From a virus, in IMG/VR virus record IMGVR_UViG_3300036591_000020, positions 1 through 32,468 of that record: DNA of 32,468 bases; one strand, written 5' to 3'. The position numbers and the translations under genes are program-made. Positions 3,676 through 32,468 of this stretch are shown here, one piece after another. The notes beneath the pieces are model-generated. The model saw only the letters and a program-made list of their open reading frames with translations. It was not told where the DNA came from and did no database searches. Each line of letters opens with the position of its first letter. Position 1 is the first letter of the stretch.

Positions 3676-3706
3676 TAATATTAACTATTTTATTTAATAA
3701 TTACAA
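3676..3706 (-). promoter_or_regulatory. Promoter with embedded 19-bp operator, regulator operon
   Basis: Minus strand TTG at 3706-3704, 20-base spacer, TAATATTA at 3683-3676. Plus-strand 3680-3698 is an exact copy of the pseudopalindrome ATTAACTATTTTATTTAAT. It drives 3253-3654, 2967-3245 and the XRE gene. It starts 22 bases before the ATG. Confidence 0.6.
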
Positions 3707-3802: not shown

Positions 3803-3883
3803 TTAAATAAGCAATCCGAAAATAAAGAAACTATGAGCTGCAATCATTGCTAGAATTGGAATTATAATTAGTAATAGGATCAT
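3803..3883 (-). CDS. 26-aa hydrophobic membrane micropeptide
   Basis: ATG at 3881-3883 overlaps the TGA of the coiled-coil gene (ATGA, 4-base overlap), and TAA is at 3803-3805. The product, MILLLIIIPILAMIAAHSFF followed by IFGLLI, is hydrophobic along its whole length and would span the membrane once. The start overlap implies coupled translation, and a terminator follows 57 bases later, so the transcript ends with this gene. Candidate roles for such a phage peptide are membrane interference, superinfection exclusion or a lysis helper; none can be chosen from sequence. The main doubt is the shortness; the coupling and the terminator argue that it is real. Confidence 0.5.
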   Translation of the reverse strand: MILLLIIIPILAMIAAHSFFIFGLLI

Positions 3884-4956
3884 AATTTTTCAATCTCCTT
3901 TTTAGCCCAATTTTTGAAAGATTCAAACTTTAGCATTATATCTTTTACAGTTTCGTCTTCGCTCATTCCTGAAGGTGTAACGATAGCAAAATCATTTACC
4001 CAGTTCGTAATCTTTACTTTTTTAGGGGCTTTTAGGGCTTCTAATTCAGCTTTTAGTTCTGCTTCTGCCTTGGCTTGAATAGCCTTATTTATTTTCATTT
4101 CCTCATTAGCTTTTGCCCTAACCTGATTTTCAAGGTCTAAACGAGCTGCTTTTTCTGTTAGAAGGATATTATAAGCTTTTAGTTGAGCCGCTTCTTTTGC
4201 CTGATCTGACCTTTTTCTTTCGGCTGCTAGGATAGCGTTATTCCTAGATGTTTCCTCATCAGCCTGAATCCTTGCGAGGATTAATTTTTCTCGCTCAGCT
4301 TTTAACTCCAAAGCCTTAACGTCCGCCTCCTTTCTAAGCCTTTCATTCTCTTTTTGCATCCTTACACGCTCATCTTCATCAGCCTTAATTTTTGCCAATC
4401 GCTCAGATTCAATCCTTTTTTCTTCCTCAATCCTTTTATTGAATTTAGCCTCAACGCCTGAAAGGAAAATTTCAAATGAATCGGAACTCATTTTCTCAAA
4501 TTCAATCCGGTTAATATCAGAATCAAATTTTGATACTTGAATCATTCTTTGCTGAGTTTCAAGTTCCTTTGCTTCCAAGTCAAAACGGATCTTAGTTTCT
4601 TCCTTCCATTTTGCGGTTGCCTCTAGTTCTTTAGTCATTATTTGCGTGACTTGCTTACCCTTCAGCCACAGCTGATCTAGTGTTTTGTAAGAAATCATTA
4701 GCTCCTGAACCTCGGACCTTTTTTGGTCAAAGGTTCTTTCGGCATCTAGTCTAACTTGCCGAATACCAAGCCTGATCGTATTAGCAAGTTTCATGTTGAC
4801 CTTATCGTTTTCACTAGTAACCTCGACTAGATCCAACTGCTCTCGCATCTTGGAGACACCTGCAAAGACGCTGTTAAGAACACTCTGAACCTCATTTCTT
4901 TTTTCTACATTTACATTTTTGGCAATCTCTACCAATTCATTAGGTAATTCGCTCAT
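3880..4956 (-). CDS. Long coiled-coil phage protein (DUF1351-like arrangement)
   Basis: A 358-aa protein that is almost wholly helical. Residues 1-130 contain an N-terminal helical domain (VEKRNEVQSVLNSVFAGVSK ... RLGIRQVRLDAERTFDQKRSE), and about 165-320 is an uninterrupted coiled coil very rich in Glu, Lys and Ala. The last 40 residues (KKVKITNWVNDFAIV ... KNWAKKEIEKL) form a small C-terminal domain. The layout resembles DUF1351-type phage proteins usually found next to recombination genes; the function of the family is not established. It is alone with a 26-aa micropeptide in a unit that has its own promoter/operator and terminator. The leader is AACGACAAAATAATG. Confidence 0.65.
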   Translation of the reverse strand: MSELPNELVEIAKNVNVEKRNEVQSVLNSVFAGVSKMREQLDLVEVTSENDKVNMKLANTIRLGIRQVRLDAERTFDQKRSEVQELMISYKTLDQLWLKGKQVTQIMTKELEATAKWKEETKIRFDLEAKELETQQRMIQVSKFDSDINRIEFEKMSSDSFEIFLSGVEAKFNKRIEEEKRIESERLAKIKADEDERVRMQKENERLRKEADVKALELKAEREKLILARIQADEETSRNNAILAAERKRSDQAKEAAQLKAYNILLTEKAARLDLENQVRAKANEEMKINKAIQAKAEAELKAELEALKAPKKVKITNWVNDFAIVTPSGMSEDETVKDIMLKFESFKNWAKKEIEKL

Positions 4957-4978: not shown

Positions 4979-5008
4979 CAAAATTAACTAATTTATTTAA
5001 AAAAACAA
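4979..5008 (-). promoter_or_regulatory. Promoter with embedded operator, coiled-coil gene
   Basis: Minus strand TTG at 5008-5006, 19-base spacer, TAATTTTG at 4986-4979, a perfect TAnnTTTG box. Plus-strand 4983-5001 is ATTAACTAATTTATTTAAA, the operator with two changes. This is the best promoter match of the set. A half-site (ATTAACTA) repeats at 5028-5035. Confidence 0.7.
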
Positions 5009-5045
5009 ATACTTTTAATTATTAAAAATTAACTAAATTAGATGA

Positions 5046-5172
5046 ATGAATAAACCCCCCAGCTGCAAAGAAAGAATTAGAACCAGCTCCGATTCAGCAA
5101 TACGATTACTTTACTTTTTTGAATGATAAGAAAGCAGTTGTAATAATTGATATTAGCGGTTTGAAAAAATAG
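5046..5172 (+). pseudogene. Plus-strand 41-aa microgene with a frame break in a C6 tract
   Basis: This is the only convincing plus-strand coding stretch. From ATG 5046 the frame reads Met-Asn-Lys-Pro-Pro and then, in this frame, a sequence that soon stops. Skipping one C of the C6 run at 5055-5060 instead gives an open frame to TAG at 5170-5172 encoding about 41 residues, including AAKKELEPAPIQQYDYFTFL and DKKAVVIIDISGLKK. The normal amino-acid mix and the strong plus-strand terminator 31 bases later support a real gene. Three explanations fit: a sequencing or assembly error in the C-run, a phase-variable on/off switch, or +1 ribosomal frameshifting on CCC. Function unknown. The rest of the gap 4957-5263 holds promoters and two terminators. 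Confidence 0.5.
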
Positions 5173-5202
5173 ATGTTAGGTTATGTTTTAGTAGTGCGGA
5201 AA

Positions 5203-5232
5203 AGGAGCGGTTTATGACTGCTCCTTTTTTTT
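5203..5232 (+). terminator. Plus-strand rho-independent terminator
   Basis: AGGAGC and GCTCCT form a 6-bp stem around an 11-base loop, followed by eight T on the plus strand. It faces the opposite way to nearly all genes here and follows the plus-strand microgene, which supports real transcription of that strand. Confidence 0.75.
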
Positions 5233-5236
5233 GCGC

Positions 5237-5258
5237 AAAAAAATAGCCCCGAAGGGCT
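5237..5258 (-). terminator. Minus-strand rho-independent terminator with UUCG loop
   Basis: Minus strand AGCCC-TTCG-GGGCT followed by A and seven T, only six bases after the stop of the 58-aa gene. It is back to back with the plus-strand terminator at 5203-5232. The stem and loop repeat those at 2096-2107. Confidence 0.8.
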
Positions 5259-5263
5259 TTAGG

Positions 5264-5440
5264 TTAATTTACCTTTTTGAAAGTTCTCCATACGTCTAGA
5301 AAACCTATAGTACCTTCAGGCTGGTATTCTTTGCAGGTAAGAAAAGGCAAACCATTTTTTGGATCAATGGAGTGGAAATGAAAAACATATTTTCCATCTG
5401 TAAATACTGAACCCGGTGTAAAATCTTCTATTTTGCTCAT
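5264..5440 (-). CDS. Hypothetical 58-aa phage protein
   Basis: ATG at 5438-5440 and TAA at 5264-5266 give a 58-residue protein (start MSKIEDFTPGSVFTDGKYVF). Alternating residues in VFTDGKYVFHFHSID and a central LTCKEYQPEG suggest a small beta fold; the family is not recognised. It is a single-gene transcription unit: a promoter/operator at 5479-5508, the leader AAGAGCGATCATG with the AGCGAY element, and a terminator directly after the stop. Such isolated units are typical of phage accessory genes (morons). Confidence 0.65.
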   Translation of the reverse strand: MSKIEDFTPGSVFTDGKYVFHFHSIDPKNGLPFLTCKEYQPEGTIGFLDVWRTFKKVN

Positions 5441-5478: not shown

Positions 5479-5508
5479 TAAAATTAAACAATTTATTTAA
5501 TAATGCAA
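5479..5508 (-). promoter_or_regulatory. Promoter with variant operator, 58-aa gene
   Basis: Minus strand TTG at 5508-5506, 19-base spacer, TAATTTTA at 5486-5479. Plus-strand 5483-5501 (ATTAAACAATTTATTTAAT) matches the operator with three changes but keeps both ATTAA/TTAAT arms. It sits just after the lysis operon ends. Confidence 0.6.
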
Positions 5509-5517
5509 AACAAAAGA

Positions 5518-6006
5518 CTATTTATTTTTCCAGTAAAAGAACCAACCAACCCCCAAAGCGATGACAACTAAAAAAATACCCAAAACAGTATTAGGCTTCC
5601 GCTCAACTTTTTTCTCAAAGACTTCTTTACGCTCAATCCTTTCAGAATCATTTTTACTATCCTTCTTAGCCTCCGACTCCTTTACCTGTGTAATTACATT
5701 ACTTTGATTATGAACCTCTATAACAGCCTTATTTTTGACCTGAACAACTGAATCAGCTTCCCCGGTGAAAGTGCCGGACAAATCAATAACGAAAACGCCT
5801 TTGGGGTAAATTTTCAGTCCTACAATCTCCAAGGACTCCGAAGCTTTTTTTAGCTCAGATACGGATTTTACAACTGCCTTTTCGTTTACGGTTTCTGTGA
5901 TTTGCTCAGTATTTTTTTCCGCTAAGGTTTCGGATGACTTGCTTAGGTCCTTTTTCACAGTCCTGCAAGAGCTGAAAAGCATTAAGAATAGTAAGAGGTA
6001 TTTCAT
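5518..6006 (-). CDS. Unimolecular spanin (outer-membrane lipoprotein with C-terminal membrane anchor)
   Basis: The 162-aa protein starts with a lipoprotein signal, MKYLLLFLMLFSSC, with the lipidated Cys at 14. A long charged middle (20-138), rich in Lys, Glu and Ser, would cross the periplasm. One transmembrane helix follows near the C-terminus (NTVLGIFLVVIALGVGWFFY, about 139-158) with a short KNK tail inside. This double anchoring is the definition of a u-spanin such as T1 gp11, which links inner and outer membranes and fuses them in the last step of lysis of Gram-negative hosts. It is the last gene of the lysis block, overlapping the amidase by ATGA, which strongly supports the call. Confidence 0.85.
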   Translation of the reverse strand: MKYLLLFLMLFSSCRTVKKDLSKSSETLAEKNTEQITETVNEKAVVKSVSELKKASESLEIVGLKIYPKGVFVIDLSGTFTGEADSVVQVKNKAVIEVHNQSNVITQVKESEAKKDSKNDSERIERKEVFEKKVERKPNTVLGIFLVVIALGVGWFFYWKNK

Positions 6007-6410
6007 GTGCTCAGTTCTTTATACTCGATCTGTGCATCAAATCTAGGACATTCTTTTTTCACATTTGGAAAATCCCTATGCCCCTGAATCTTTACTTTTT
6101 TTCCAGCATAAATAAAAGCGCGTTCAATGCAAACAATTATAGATTTCTTTTGCGCTTCGGTCCTGTCATCTACCTTCGCACCCCCGATATAACTAATGTG
6201 AATAGACTTGGAATTATAGCCTTTTACACCATTAGTAATTTCATCAAAAGACGCAAGTGTATGAATCCTTCCGCTTTGCTCAATCAAACAATGATACCCA
6301 ACGCTCTTCCAATTCAGCGTATTTTTCCAATGATTTATTATACTTTCTACGGTAGTGCTTTGCGGTGTTGCGGTGCAATGTATTACAACATGATCTATTT
6401 TTCTTTTCAT
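6003..6410 (-). CDS. N-acetylmuramoyl-L-alanine amidase endolysin (Amidase_2)
   Basis: A 135-aa single-domain enzyme of the T7-lysozyme/PGRP fold, cutting the bond between MurNAc and L-alanine in peptidoglycan. Visible residues: zinc ligands H11 (VVIHCTAT), H111 (GHRD) and C121 (KKECPRFD), plus Y39 (SVGYH) and K119, which match the catalytic Tyr and Lys of T7 lysozyme. There is no signal peptide, so release needs the holin. It overlaps the spanin (ATGA) and the metallophosphoesterase (ATGA) and forms a tight lysis operon with the holin. Length is normal for a minimal phage amidase. Confidence 0.9.
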   Translation of the reverse strand: MKRKIDHVVIHCTATPQSTTVESIINHWKNTLNWKSVGYHCLIEQSGRIHTLASFDEITNGVKGYNSKSIHISYIGGAKVDDRTEAQKKSIIVCIERAFIYAGKKVKIQGHRDFPNVKKECPRFDAQIEYKELST

Positions 6411-7761: not shown

Positions 7762-8127
7762 TTATATCTTTTTTGCTTCGATAAAAAAATCATCTGTTTG
7801 ATCTTCGCTCATTTCTAGCATACCTGCCATTGCTGCGATGTGGATATTATCCCTATTCCAGCTAAGTGAATACTCCCAGAATATTGCCAAAGCATCCTCG
7901 GTTGAGTTTTCGACTGCTTCTTTGACCGCTGCTAATAATCCCATTTGTAGCAACATCATTCTACCTTGGGATGGTGTGATTGAGAAGGGTACCTCTTCCA
8001 AAGGTAAATCTTCGCCCGTTGCCAAGATATATGCTTCCCTTGTGATGTACTCTATACTACGCTCAGTTGTAATTACTTGATCATCTATAAGTATTCCGTA
8101 TTCTTTTGCTAGTTTGTAGAATTTCAT
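7762..8127 (-). CDS. Tail-fibre-associated small phage protein (fibre-adjacent family)
   Basis: The 121-aa protein has a pattern seen in many small phage proteins encoded just after tail fibres: ITPSQGRMMLLQMGLLAAVK (about 50-69), then an ALAIFWEYSLSWNRD stretch and a final MLEMSEDQTDDFF. This matches the family consensus QaRLaLlqaGLLdqVe ... ieWeyat.vrRd ... LgLt..qlD.lF, whose exact role is unclear; fibre assembly or attachment has been suggested because of location. Here too it follows and overlaps the BspA-repeat fibre by ATGA and lies directly before the holin. Confidence 0.65.
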   Translation of the reverse strand: MKFYKLAKEYGILIDDQVITTERSIEYITREAYILATGEDLPLEEVPFSITPSQGRMMLLQMGLLAAVKEAVENSTEDALAIFWEYSLSWNRDNIHIAAMAGMLEMSEDQTDDFFIEAKKI

Positions 8128-9800
8128 ATTCCTCCGTCGATTATTGTCCAGAAATTAGGCGAACCCGTTAAAACTGCTCTTGCTACGCTTGCCGCTGACG
8201 TATATCGTATAGTTCCAAAGTTGATAGAGATATTTGGCTTTACGGGTCTATTTGCCCACCCTATTAGCAATGCATTGTAATTTACTGTGGAGTAGTTTAA
8301 GAACGTCTTACTTATCATAAAATTTGTAAAATTAGTAACATTGCTAACATTCCAAGCTCCAATATTCTGATTGAAAGCAGTTGCGTTATTAAACATATCA
8401 ACCATAGTAGTAACATTGCTAACATTCCAAGCTCCAATATTCTGATTGAAAGCAGTTGCGCTTTGAAACATCTGTTGCATATTAATAACATTCTGAGTAT
8501 TCCAAGCTCCAATATTCTGATTGAAATCAGTTGCGCTATTAAACATACTACCCATATTAGTAACATTGCTAACATTCCAAGCTCCAATATTCTGATTGAA
8601 AGCAGTTGCTCTAAAAAACATAACTGCCGTATTAGTAACACTACTAACATTCCATTCATTCATACCCCTCACCTTTGTAAGGTTTACACAATTTCGAAAA
8701 GCGGTGGAAATATTTGTAGAAATATTATAAGGAGCATCTTTCACGTCTATAGCCGCTAAATTTTCACAACCGTAAAAAGCAGATGTACCTATAACAGTTC
8801 CACCCCAATAAATTATTTCTCCAATTTTCAAACGCTCAGCTCCGTTATTGAACTGCAAAAAGAAGATATTACCGTAGATTTTAATTCTGTATTCCCCTCT
8901 TACAAGGTATGTTTTAGTTGTATTTTCAGCGTTAAAAGTTGATATGTTTTCAACATCACCATTACCCCAATCAACTATTACAGGTTCAAAACTTACACTT
9001 GAAAATGGTAGCCTAACCTGAAAATCGTTACTTCCACCTCCTCCTAAAACATTTCGTGTATCAAAGAATGCCTCGAAAGGTGTACTTATAATATTTCCCG
9101 TAATAATTATTTCTTGAGTTAATCCTCTTTGTCGAATGCTAAAATCAGATTTTGGATTAATTAAAGGTTCTGGATTTCCAAATGGAAAAGTCTTTGCTCC
9201 AAGTTTTGAAATTTGTAAAAATCCGTTTCGTACAATTACTCGAAAAGTCCAGTTAACCGAAAATAGCTGTGCTGGAATTGTTATTGTAGAATCATTTGTG
9301 ACTATGATTACTTTGTTTCTCCAAGCTTCCAAAGCAGTTACATCTTCAGAAACTTCTATTTGCGTTGCTGGATCAATGATGTTAGCTAATACTATATTCT
9401 TCGCAGCCTCCGCAGCCGCAGCACTTGCAGCCGATTCACCAGCTTTGGTTAATGATTTTCCAGCCTCTTCAATAGCGATGCCCTGCGCTGCCACACTAGC
9501 TAGTCTAGCAACCTCAGAAGCAACTGCCGAATCATTGGAGTCCGAAGCAAAGCCCCCCGAAGCAGTAGCGGCACTTTCAGCATCTACTTTTGAAGCAAGT
9601 GCCTCCGCTGCATCCTCCACCGTTTGCGCTGCTTTTTCGGTAGCTACCTGCTCAGAGTCACCTGCTGCAATAGCCGAAATTCTAGCCTCTTCCGCACTGA
9701 TTGCAGCTTTTACCGCCTCTTGTCTAGCTAGATCCTCGTCACCTGCTTTGACAAGAATCCTGTATTCGTTAGTTTCTGACTTAACTACTATAACGCTCAT
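8124..9800 (-). CDS. Tail fibre with BspA-like (DUF285) repeats, probable receptor-binding protein
   Basis: A 558-aa protein with three parts. Residues 20-135 are an Ala/Glu/Ser-rich helical stalk, typical of phage fibre N-terminal regions. Residues about 160-380 are a beta-rich middle with a VDWGNGD element near 277. Residues about 381-505 hold five 25-residue BspA-type repeats (core AFNQNIGAWNVSNVTNM then a variable part and MF), followed by the usual BspA end (LLIGWA ... YTSAASVARAVL ... WTIIDGG). BspA repeats occur in surface adhesins of Bacteroidota and protists; on a phage fibre they most likely bind the host surface. It is the last structural gene before lysis and overlaps both neighbours by ATGA. 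Confidence 0.8.
   Translation of the reverse strand: MSVIVVKSETNEYRILVKAGDEDLARQEAVKAAISAEEARISAIAAGDSEQVATEKAAQTVEDAAEALASKVDAESAATASGGFASDSNDSAVASEVARLASVAAQGIAIEEAGKSLTKAGESAASAAAAEAAKNIVLANIIDPATQIEVSEDVTALEAWRNKVIIVTNDSTITIPAQLFSVNWTFRVIVRNGFLQISKLGAKTFPFGNPEPLINPKSDFSIRQRGLTQEIIITGNIISTPFEAFFDTRNVLGGGGSNDFQVRLPFSSVSFEPVIVDWGNGDVENISTFNAENTTKTYLVRGEYRIKIYGNIFFLQFNNGAERLKIGEIIYWGGTVIGTSAFYGCENLAAIDVKDAPYNISTNISTAFRNCVNLTKVRGMNEWNVSSVTNTAVMFFRATAFNQNIGAWNVSNVTNMGSMFNSATDFNQNIGAWNTQNVINMQQMFQSATAFNQNIGAWNVSNVTTMVDMFNNATAFNQNIGAWNVSNVTNFTNFMISKTFLNYSTVNYNALLIGWANRPVKPNISINFGTIRYTSAASVARAVLTGSPNFWTIIDGGI
8288..8660 (-). repeat. 75-bp tandem repeats encoding BspA units
   Basis: Equivalent bases recur at 8341, 8416, 8491, 8566 and 8641, an exact 75-bp period, with near-identical cores and differences limited to a few codons per unit. 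The repeats are within the fibre gene and would allow unit gain, loss or shuffling by recombination. Confidence 0.85.
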
Positions 9801-32375: not shown

Positions 32376-32399
32376 AATATTCTATTTTGGTTTCTAATT

Positions 32400-32415
32400 C
32401 CATCGATTTCGATGG
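32400..32415. promoter_or_regulatory. Perfect inverted repeat, possible operator
   Basis: CCATCGATTTCGATGG: 7-bp arms around a TT centre. It lies in the gap between a gene end (32431) and the ATG at 32375, where a promoter is expected, and its sequence is unlike the dispersed 19-bp operator. It could also form a small hairpin, but no T-run follows on either strand. Confidence 0.45.
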
Positions 32416-32430
32416 GGTTAAAACATTAAT

Positions 32431-32468
32431 TCAACTCCCACAGCCCACACAATCAAACTCCGATCCTT
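32431..32468 (-). CDS. C-terminal fragment of a small Cys-containing protein (cut by window edge)
   Basis: Reading from the right edge on the minus strand in the frame beginning at 32466 gives GSEFDCVGCGS and a TGA at 32431-32433. The CVGC pair and GS ending look like a genuine conserved C-terminus. It may be the end of the gene whose start is at 1-99, if the molecule is circular. Confidence 0.45.
   Translation of the reverse strand, partial: GSEFDCVGCGS

Follow-up and report, generated by a model that had tools for sequence, protein, structure and literature searches.

Phage morons, such as those of the lambdoid phages, are accessory genes that carry their own promoter and terminator, and the classical examples belong to prophages, with expression in lysogens. 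A review on Campylobacter (PMC8355987) deals with contingency genes that have homopolymeric G/C tracts. The locus analyzed here, a small plus-strand gene at the end of a lysis operon in an uncultured phage, has features of both. Like a moron, it would form an independent unit on the plus strand, running against its neighbors and closed by its own terminator, and some related phages have an unrelated gene in its place; it differs from the classical morons expressed in lysogens in that the unit is known from its sequence and its promoter is putative. Like contingency genes, it has a short run near the start of the frame whose length decides whether the frame is read, but this tract is short and of mixed A/C composition, and the C run in intact relatives ranges only from C1 to C4.

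We propose, with a probability of about two in three, that the small gene is accessory, resembles a moron and occupies an exchangeable slot, and that its copy in our sequence is out of frame either by a natural frameshift or by an assembly error.

Source Record and Searches

The window, by which we mean the whole stretch of DNA analyzed, is the metagenome-derived IMG/VR virus record IMGVR_UViG_3300036591_000020 (32,468 bases). The record is classed as linear, but in two relatives, G002 and G006, about 41 bases separate its two ends (1–65 and 32391–32468), and it therefore probably represents an almost full-length phage genome with a circularly permuted map; the map of a third relative, G003, is apparently circular as well. 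The gene content includes a portal, a holin, an amidase and a VapE-like/BT4734-like primase-helicase, which together with a TTTG-N19-TAATTTTG promoter suggests that the host of this tailed phage is probably a member of the Bacteroidota; a TAnnTTTG promoter consensus is given for Flavobacterium in the literature. Within the large gene at 8124–9800, the segment 8331–8640 matches several places in the relative G005 (79–91%), which suggests repeated domains in a tail-type protein. Copies of the small gene were sought by way of neighboring genes, by DNA patterns drawn from the small frame and its terminator, and by profile search of whole records.

The Small Gene in the Window and in Related Phages

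The small gene occupies positions 5046–5172 of the plus strand, with an ATG at 5046–5048, AAA at 5052–5054, a run of six C at 5055–5060 and a TAG at 5170–5172. The frame that begins at the ATG stops after 26 codons (translation MNKPPSCKERIRTSSDSAIRLLYFFE, then a stop), and an offset frame, open from 5050 to 5172 just after a TGA at 5047–5049, encodes INPPAAKKELEPAPIQQYDYFTFLNDKKAVVIIDISGLKK up to its stop. The description of the site in the sequence-only reading, with its ATG, C6 run, offset frame and downstream plus-strand terminator, is thus borne out by direct reading, as is the proposal of a lone plus-strand gene with its own terminator, all long genes of recognizable type in the window being on the minus strand. 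In the window by itself, neither an open frame of such length nor a single C6 exceeds chance. Among simulated sequences with the composition of this AT-rich gap, 41% contain a plus-strand open frame of 40 codons or more (6% for frames started by ATG), and two C/G runs of six or more are observed in the window against about six expected under a first-order model.

The grounds for calling it a gene lie in the relatives. Five further copies, with about 90% DNA identity, were found in contigs of related uncultured phages (L006/L013, L012/L016, L010/L014, L009/L015 and G003, the last comprising L008/L018 and L022). The sequence-only reading had made its case depend on a conserved frame in homologous phages, and such a frame is present: four of the five relatives are in frame from the ATG, with 41 codons wherever the gene is complete (three copies complete, one split by contig ends). 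Three of these begin MKKKAAAKK.., MKKNPAAKK.. and MNKTPATKK.., and that of G003 reads MNKTPAAKK.. up to the contig break; this copy is divided over both ends of the 32439-base contig, L022:1–76 holding one part and the end of L018 the other, and some 10 bases between them are absent. In the fifth relative, L009 (record G004), the ATG is not joined to the frame, the same state as in the window.

The frame changes at an A/C tract after the second codon, taken here as the stretch that separates the first two codons from the AG of the shared codons that come next. In each of the four in-frame copies the tract is 8 nt long (A6GC, A5C3, A4C4 and A4C4), whereas the tract is A3C6 in the window (9 nt, 5052–5060) and A4C2 in L009 (6 nt). 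Because intact tracts are always 8 nt and the broken ones 9 and 6 nt, the state of the frame is not set by the length of the C run alone, which is C1, C3, C4 and C4 in intact copies and C6 and C2 in the two that are broken. All copies share an unvarying core, QYDYFTFLNDKKAVV. The local sequence of the window is otherwise a mosaic, with GCTGCAAAG as in G003, L006 and L012, and ACTTTTTTG and ATTAGCGG as in L006, a pattern that fits recombination among related phages and also misassembly.

Comparison of the 41-amino-acid protein with families, solved structures, annotated phages and bacterial genomes yielded no match, and no further homologues were detected in bacterial or archaeal genome contigs, annotated phages or the PDB; by these comparisons, it belongs to no family found in the databases searched. 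A pattern match at L021 was rejected as unrelated DNA, and a match to PHROG 37744 (E 0.05–0.06, two of five members) was discarded as being at noise level.

The tests for coding, which draw on six copies from a few metagenomes, gave 6, 2 and 8 variable sites at codon positions 1, 2 and 3 in the 36 codons that follow the tract, with position 2 the least variable, and pN/pS ranged from 0 to 0.65 among the pairs, always below 1. There are no indels in the 108 nt after the tract and several in the 90 bp upstream. In a neutral simulation, the combination of no stop codon and at least 6 synonymous changes out of 16 had a probability of 0.11. The signal is weak, and we regard the small frame as probably protein-coding and translated. 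The AlphaFold model of the protein is poor (mean pLDDT 66.8, pTM 0.22) and hence no fold supports a function.

Terminators, Promoters, and Neighboring Genes

The sequence-only reading had described a strong plus-strand terminator, and this holds: a predicted intrinsic terminator at 5200–5232, which would end the small-gene transcript, has a fold of −23.5 kcal/mol (z −5.75), and every one of the eight related loci has it, even where the slot holds a different cargo. This predicted hairpin would supply the terminator of its own that a moron carries. On the minus strand, a second predicted intrinsic terminator (5238–5258) lies tail-to-tail with it and would end the convergent lysis-gene transcript.

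The likely promoter region of the small gene is a conserved stretch at 5010–5041 (..TTTTAATTA..CTAAATTAG), and alignment places similar sequence upstream of the different gene that fills the same slot in L007 and L011. The stretch ends in CTAAATTAG, its counterpart before the large gene of L007 being CTAAATTG, and we consider it a putative plus-strand promoter; no exact match to the Bacteroidota promoter consensus is found on the plus strand at the small gene. The gene had been said to lie between two operator-like promoters. These sequences are copies of a 30-bp repeated element found at 3677–3706, 4980–5009 and 5480–5509, with a weaker copy at 5025, and the copy at 4980 contains a putative Bacteroidota-type minus-strand promoter (TTTG-N19-TAATTTTG, 4979–5009) for the gene at 3880–4956; matches of this type occur at chance frequency over the whole window. 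The promoter-like element of about 30 bp is also seen on the minus strand near 2686, 25889 and 27400, and it stands upstream of several transcription units.

The divergent neighbor at 3880–4956 (minus strand) encodes a 358-amino-acid protein with no assigned function, and it too varies among relatives, with no DNA match at this place in G003, L006 or L012. A variable gene for 58 amino acids (5264–5440, minus strand), for which no relative was found in viral contigs, adjoins the terminators. Farther along the minus strand is the lysis operon, with holin, phosphoesterase, amidase and lipoprotein genes. The amidase gene at 6003–6410 precedes the gene for a 162-amino-acid lipoprotein-like protein (5518–6006, minus strand) with a C-terminal membrane segment, which is spanin-like in its anatomy and may act as a spanin.

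A Candidate Exchangeable Slot

Where the minus-strand lysis operon ends, the proposed plus-strand slot would be bounded by a divergent promoter region and, on its other side, by a bidirectional terminator. It is occupied by the 41-codon gene in six phages, the window included, and by an unrelated 495-codon gene in two (L007 and L011), that is, by the replacement at one place between close relatives that is typical of morons. The two loci with the larger gene have a terminator block matching 5169–5266 (94%), yet it is the 495-codon plus-strand gene that precedes it, and what lies upstream of this gene in L007 is 89.8% identical over 197 bp to the sequence preceding the small gene of G003. The divergent region found ahead of the 495-codon gene in L007 directly adjoins the small gene in G003; in the window, the 358-codon minus-strand gene intervenes between that region and the small gene. 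Because unrelated cargoes sit between similar upstream sequence and the same terminator, the locus behaves as an exchangeable cassette, and as judged from these comparisons it is an opposite-strand, moron-like accessory slot in which the 41-amino-acid protein would be one cargo, presumably a dispensable one.

The 495-codon gene, located at L017:6899–8410 and L011:6986–8473, was seen in two relatives only; it matches nothing in Pfam or PHROGs and has no other relatives among viral contigs. A resemblance by eye between the 41-amino-acid protein and the N-terminus of the 495-amino-acid protein was rejected as a sign of homology, since alignment scores were at the level of shuffled sequences.

Origin of the Frame Break

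We envisage a small accessory gene in a tailed-phage slot whose terminator stays fixed while the cargo changes, and in the window the A/C tract after the second codon has 9 instead of 8 nucleotides. The extra nucleotide puts the ATG out of phase with the codons that follow, and no full-length protein is therefore expected from the window sequence. Most likely the gene, presumably dispensable, underwent a natural frameshift, or else the assembly is in error. The long genes that the window shares with G004, the record holding the other broken copy, have 0 persisting frame offsets over 14.4 kb, and in seven comparisons covering 56 kb of long genes an offset was flagged in only two genes; with two of six copies of the small gene out of frame and the long genes in frame, weak constraint or some local trouble at the tract is suggested. 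That the fault is one of sequencing or assembly only, the real genome being intact, is a sub-case of this explanation that we regard as possible but doubtful. The record is derived from a metagenome, the locus is mosaic among relatives, and relatives have contig ends inside or close to it (G003 within the gene, L009 about 160 nt away), a typical place for an assembler to fail, but the long genes of the window have no comparable frame break relative to their counterparts, and C6 is short for typical read errors.

The sequence-only reading had described a gene switched by a C6 tract, with polyC slippage among its explanations and one C fewer restoring the frame; such switching finds no support among the relatives, where no intact copy has a C5 version. 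It is improbable, in our estimate, that slippage at the A/C tract toggles the gene within the phage population, with the window and L009 in the OFF state. The break does fall at the identical tract in two of six copies while neighboring long genes are in frame, and the tract differs in length and composition among relatives; however, the C1 to C4 runs of intact copies are hardly slippage-prone, L009 has only C2, and more than a one-base slip separates A3C6 from A4C4, its nearest intact form. Moreover, C6 is short for a slippage switch and is neither rarer nor commoner in the window than chance allows, and each OFF copy comes from a single assembly, with the tract of L009 close to its contig end. 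A long hypermutable tract kept in relatives, as expected of a phase-variable gene, is not found, and we consider it very unlikely that the mixed A/C tract is a true contingency site toggling a 41-amino-acid accessory protein, of which the two off copies would be snapshots. Least credible is programmed +1 ribosomal frameshifting on CCC-CCC-A, also raised in the sequence-only reading, by which the ATG would be linked to the downstream frame. Although the AAA CCC CCC A of the window would allow a +1 slip of a proline tRNA, neither the slippery site nor the offset frames are conserved among homologues, as four need no shift and L009 has AAA ACC AGC, without CCC; the predicted fold near the tract is also not significant (z −1.33). 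The weakness of the coding signal, and a 3′ part and terminator conserved at least as well as the frame, would suit a short RNA or a non-coding spacer with a terminator; we hold this to be unlikely in the face of intact ATG-started frames of 41 codons in three complete relatives and one split one, a frame free of indels, no matches in Rfam and tRNA scans, and no strong RNA structure in the body of the gene.

The suggested genetic switch would thus give way to a simpler picture, in which a slot for exchangeable accessory genes, placed where the lysis operon ends, keeps its terminator while its cargo changes; in uncultured phages of this kind, searches for small accessory genes could usefully be directed at such a slot.
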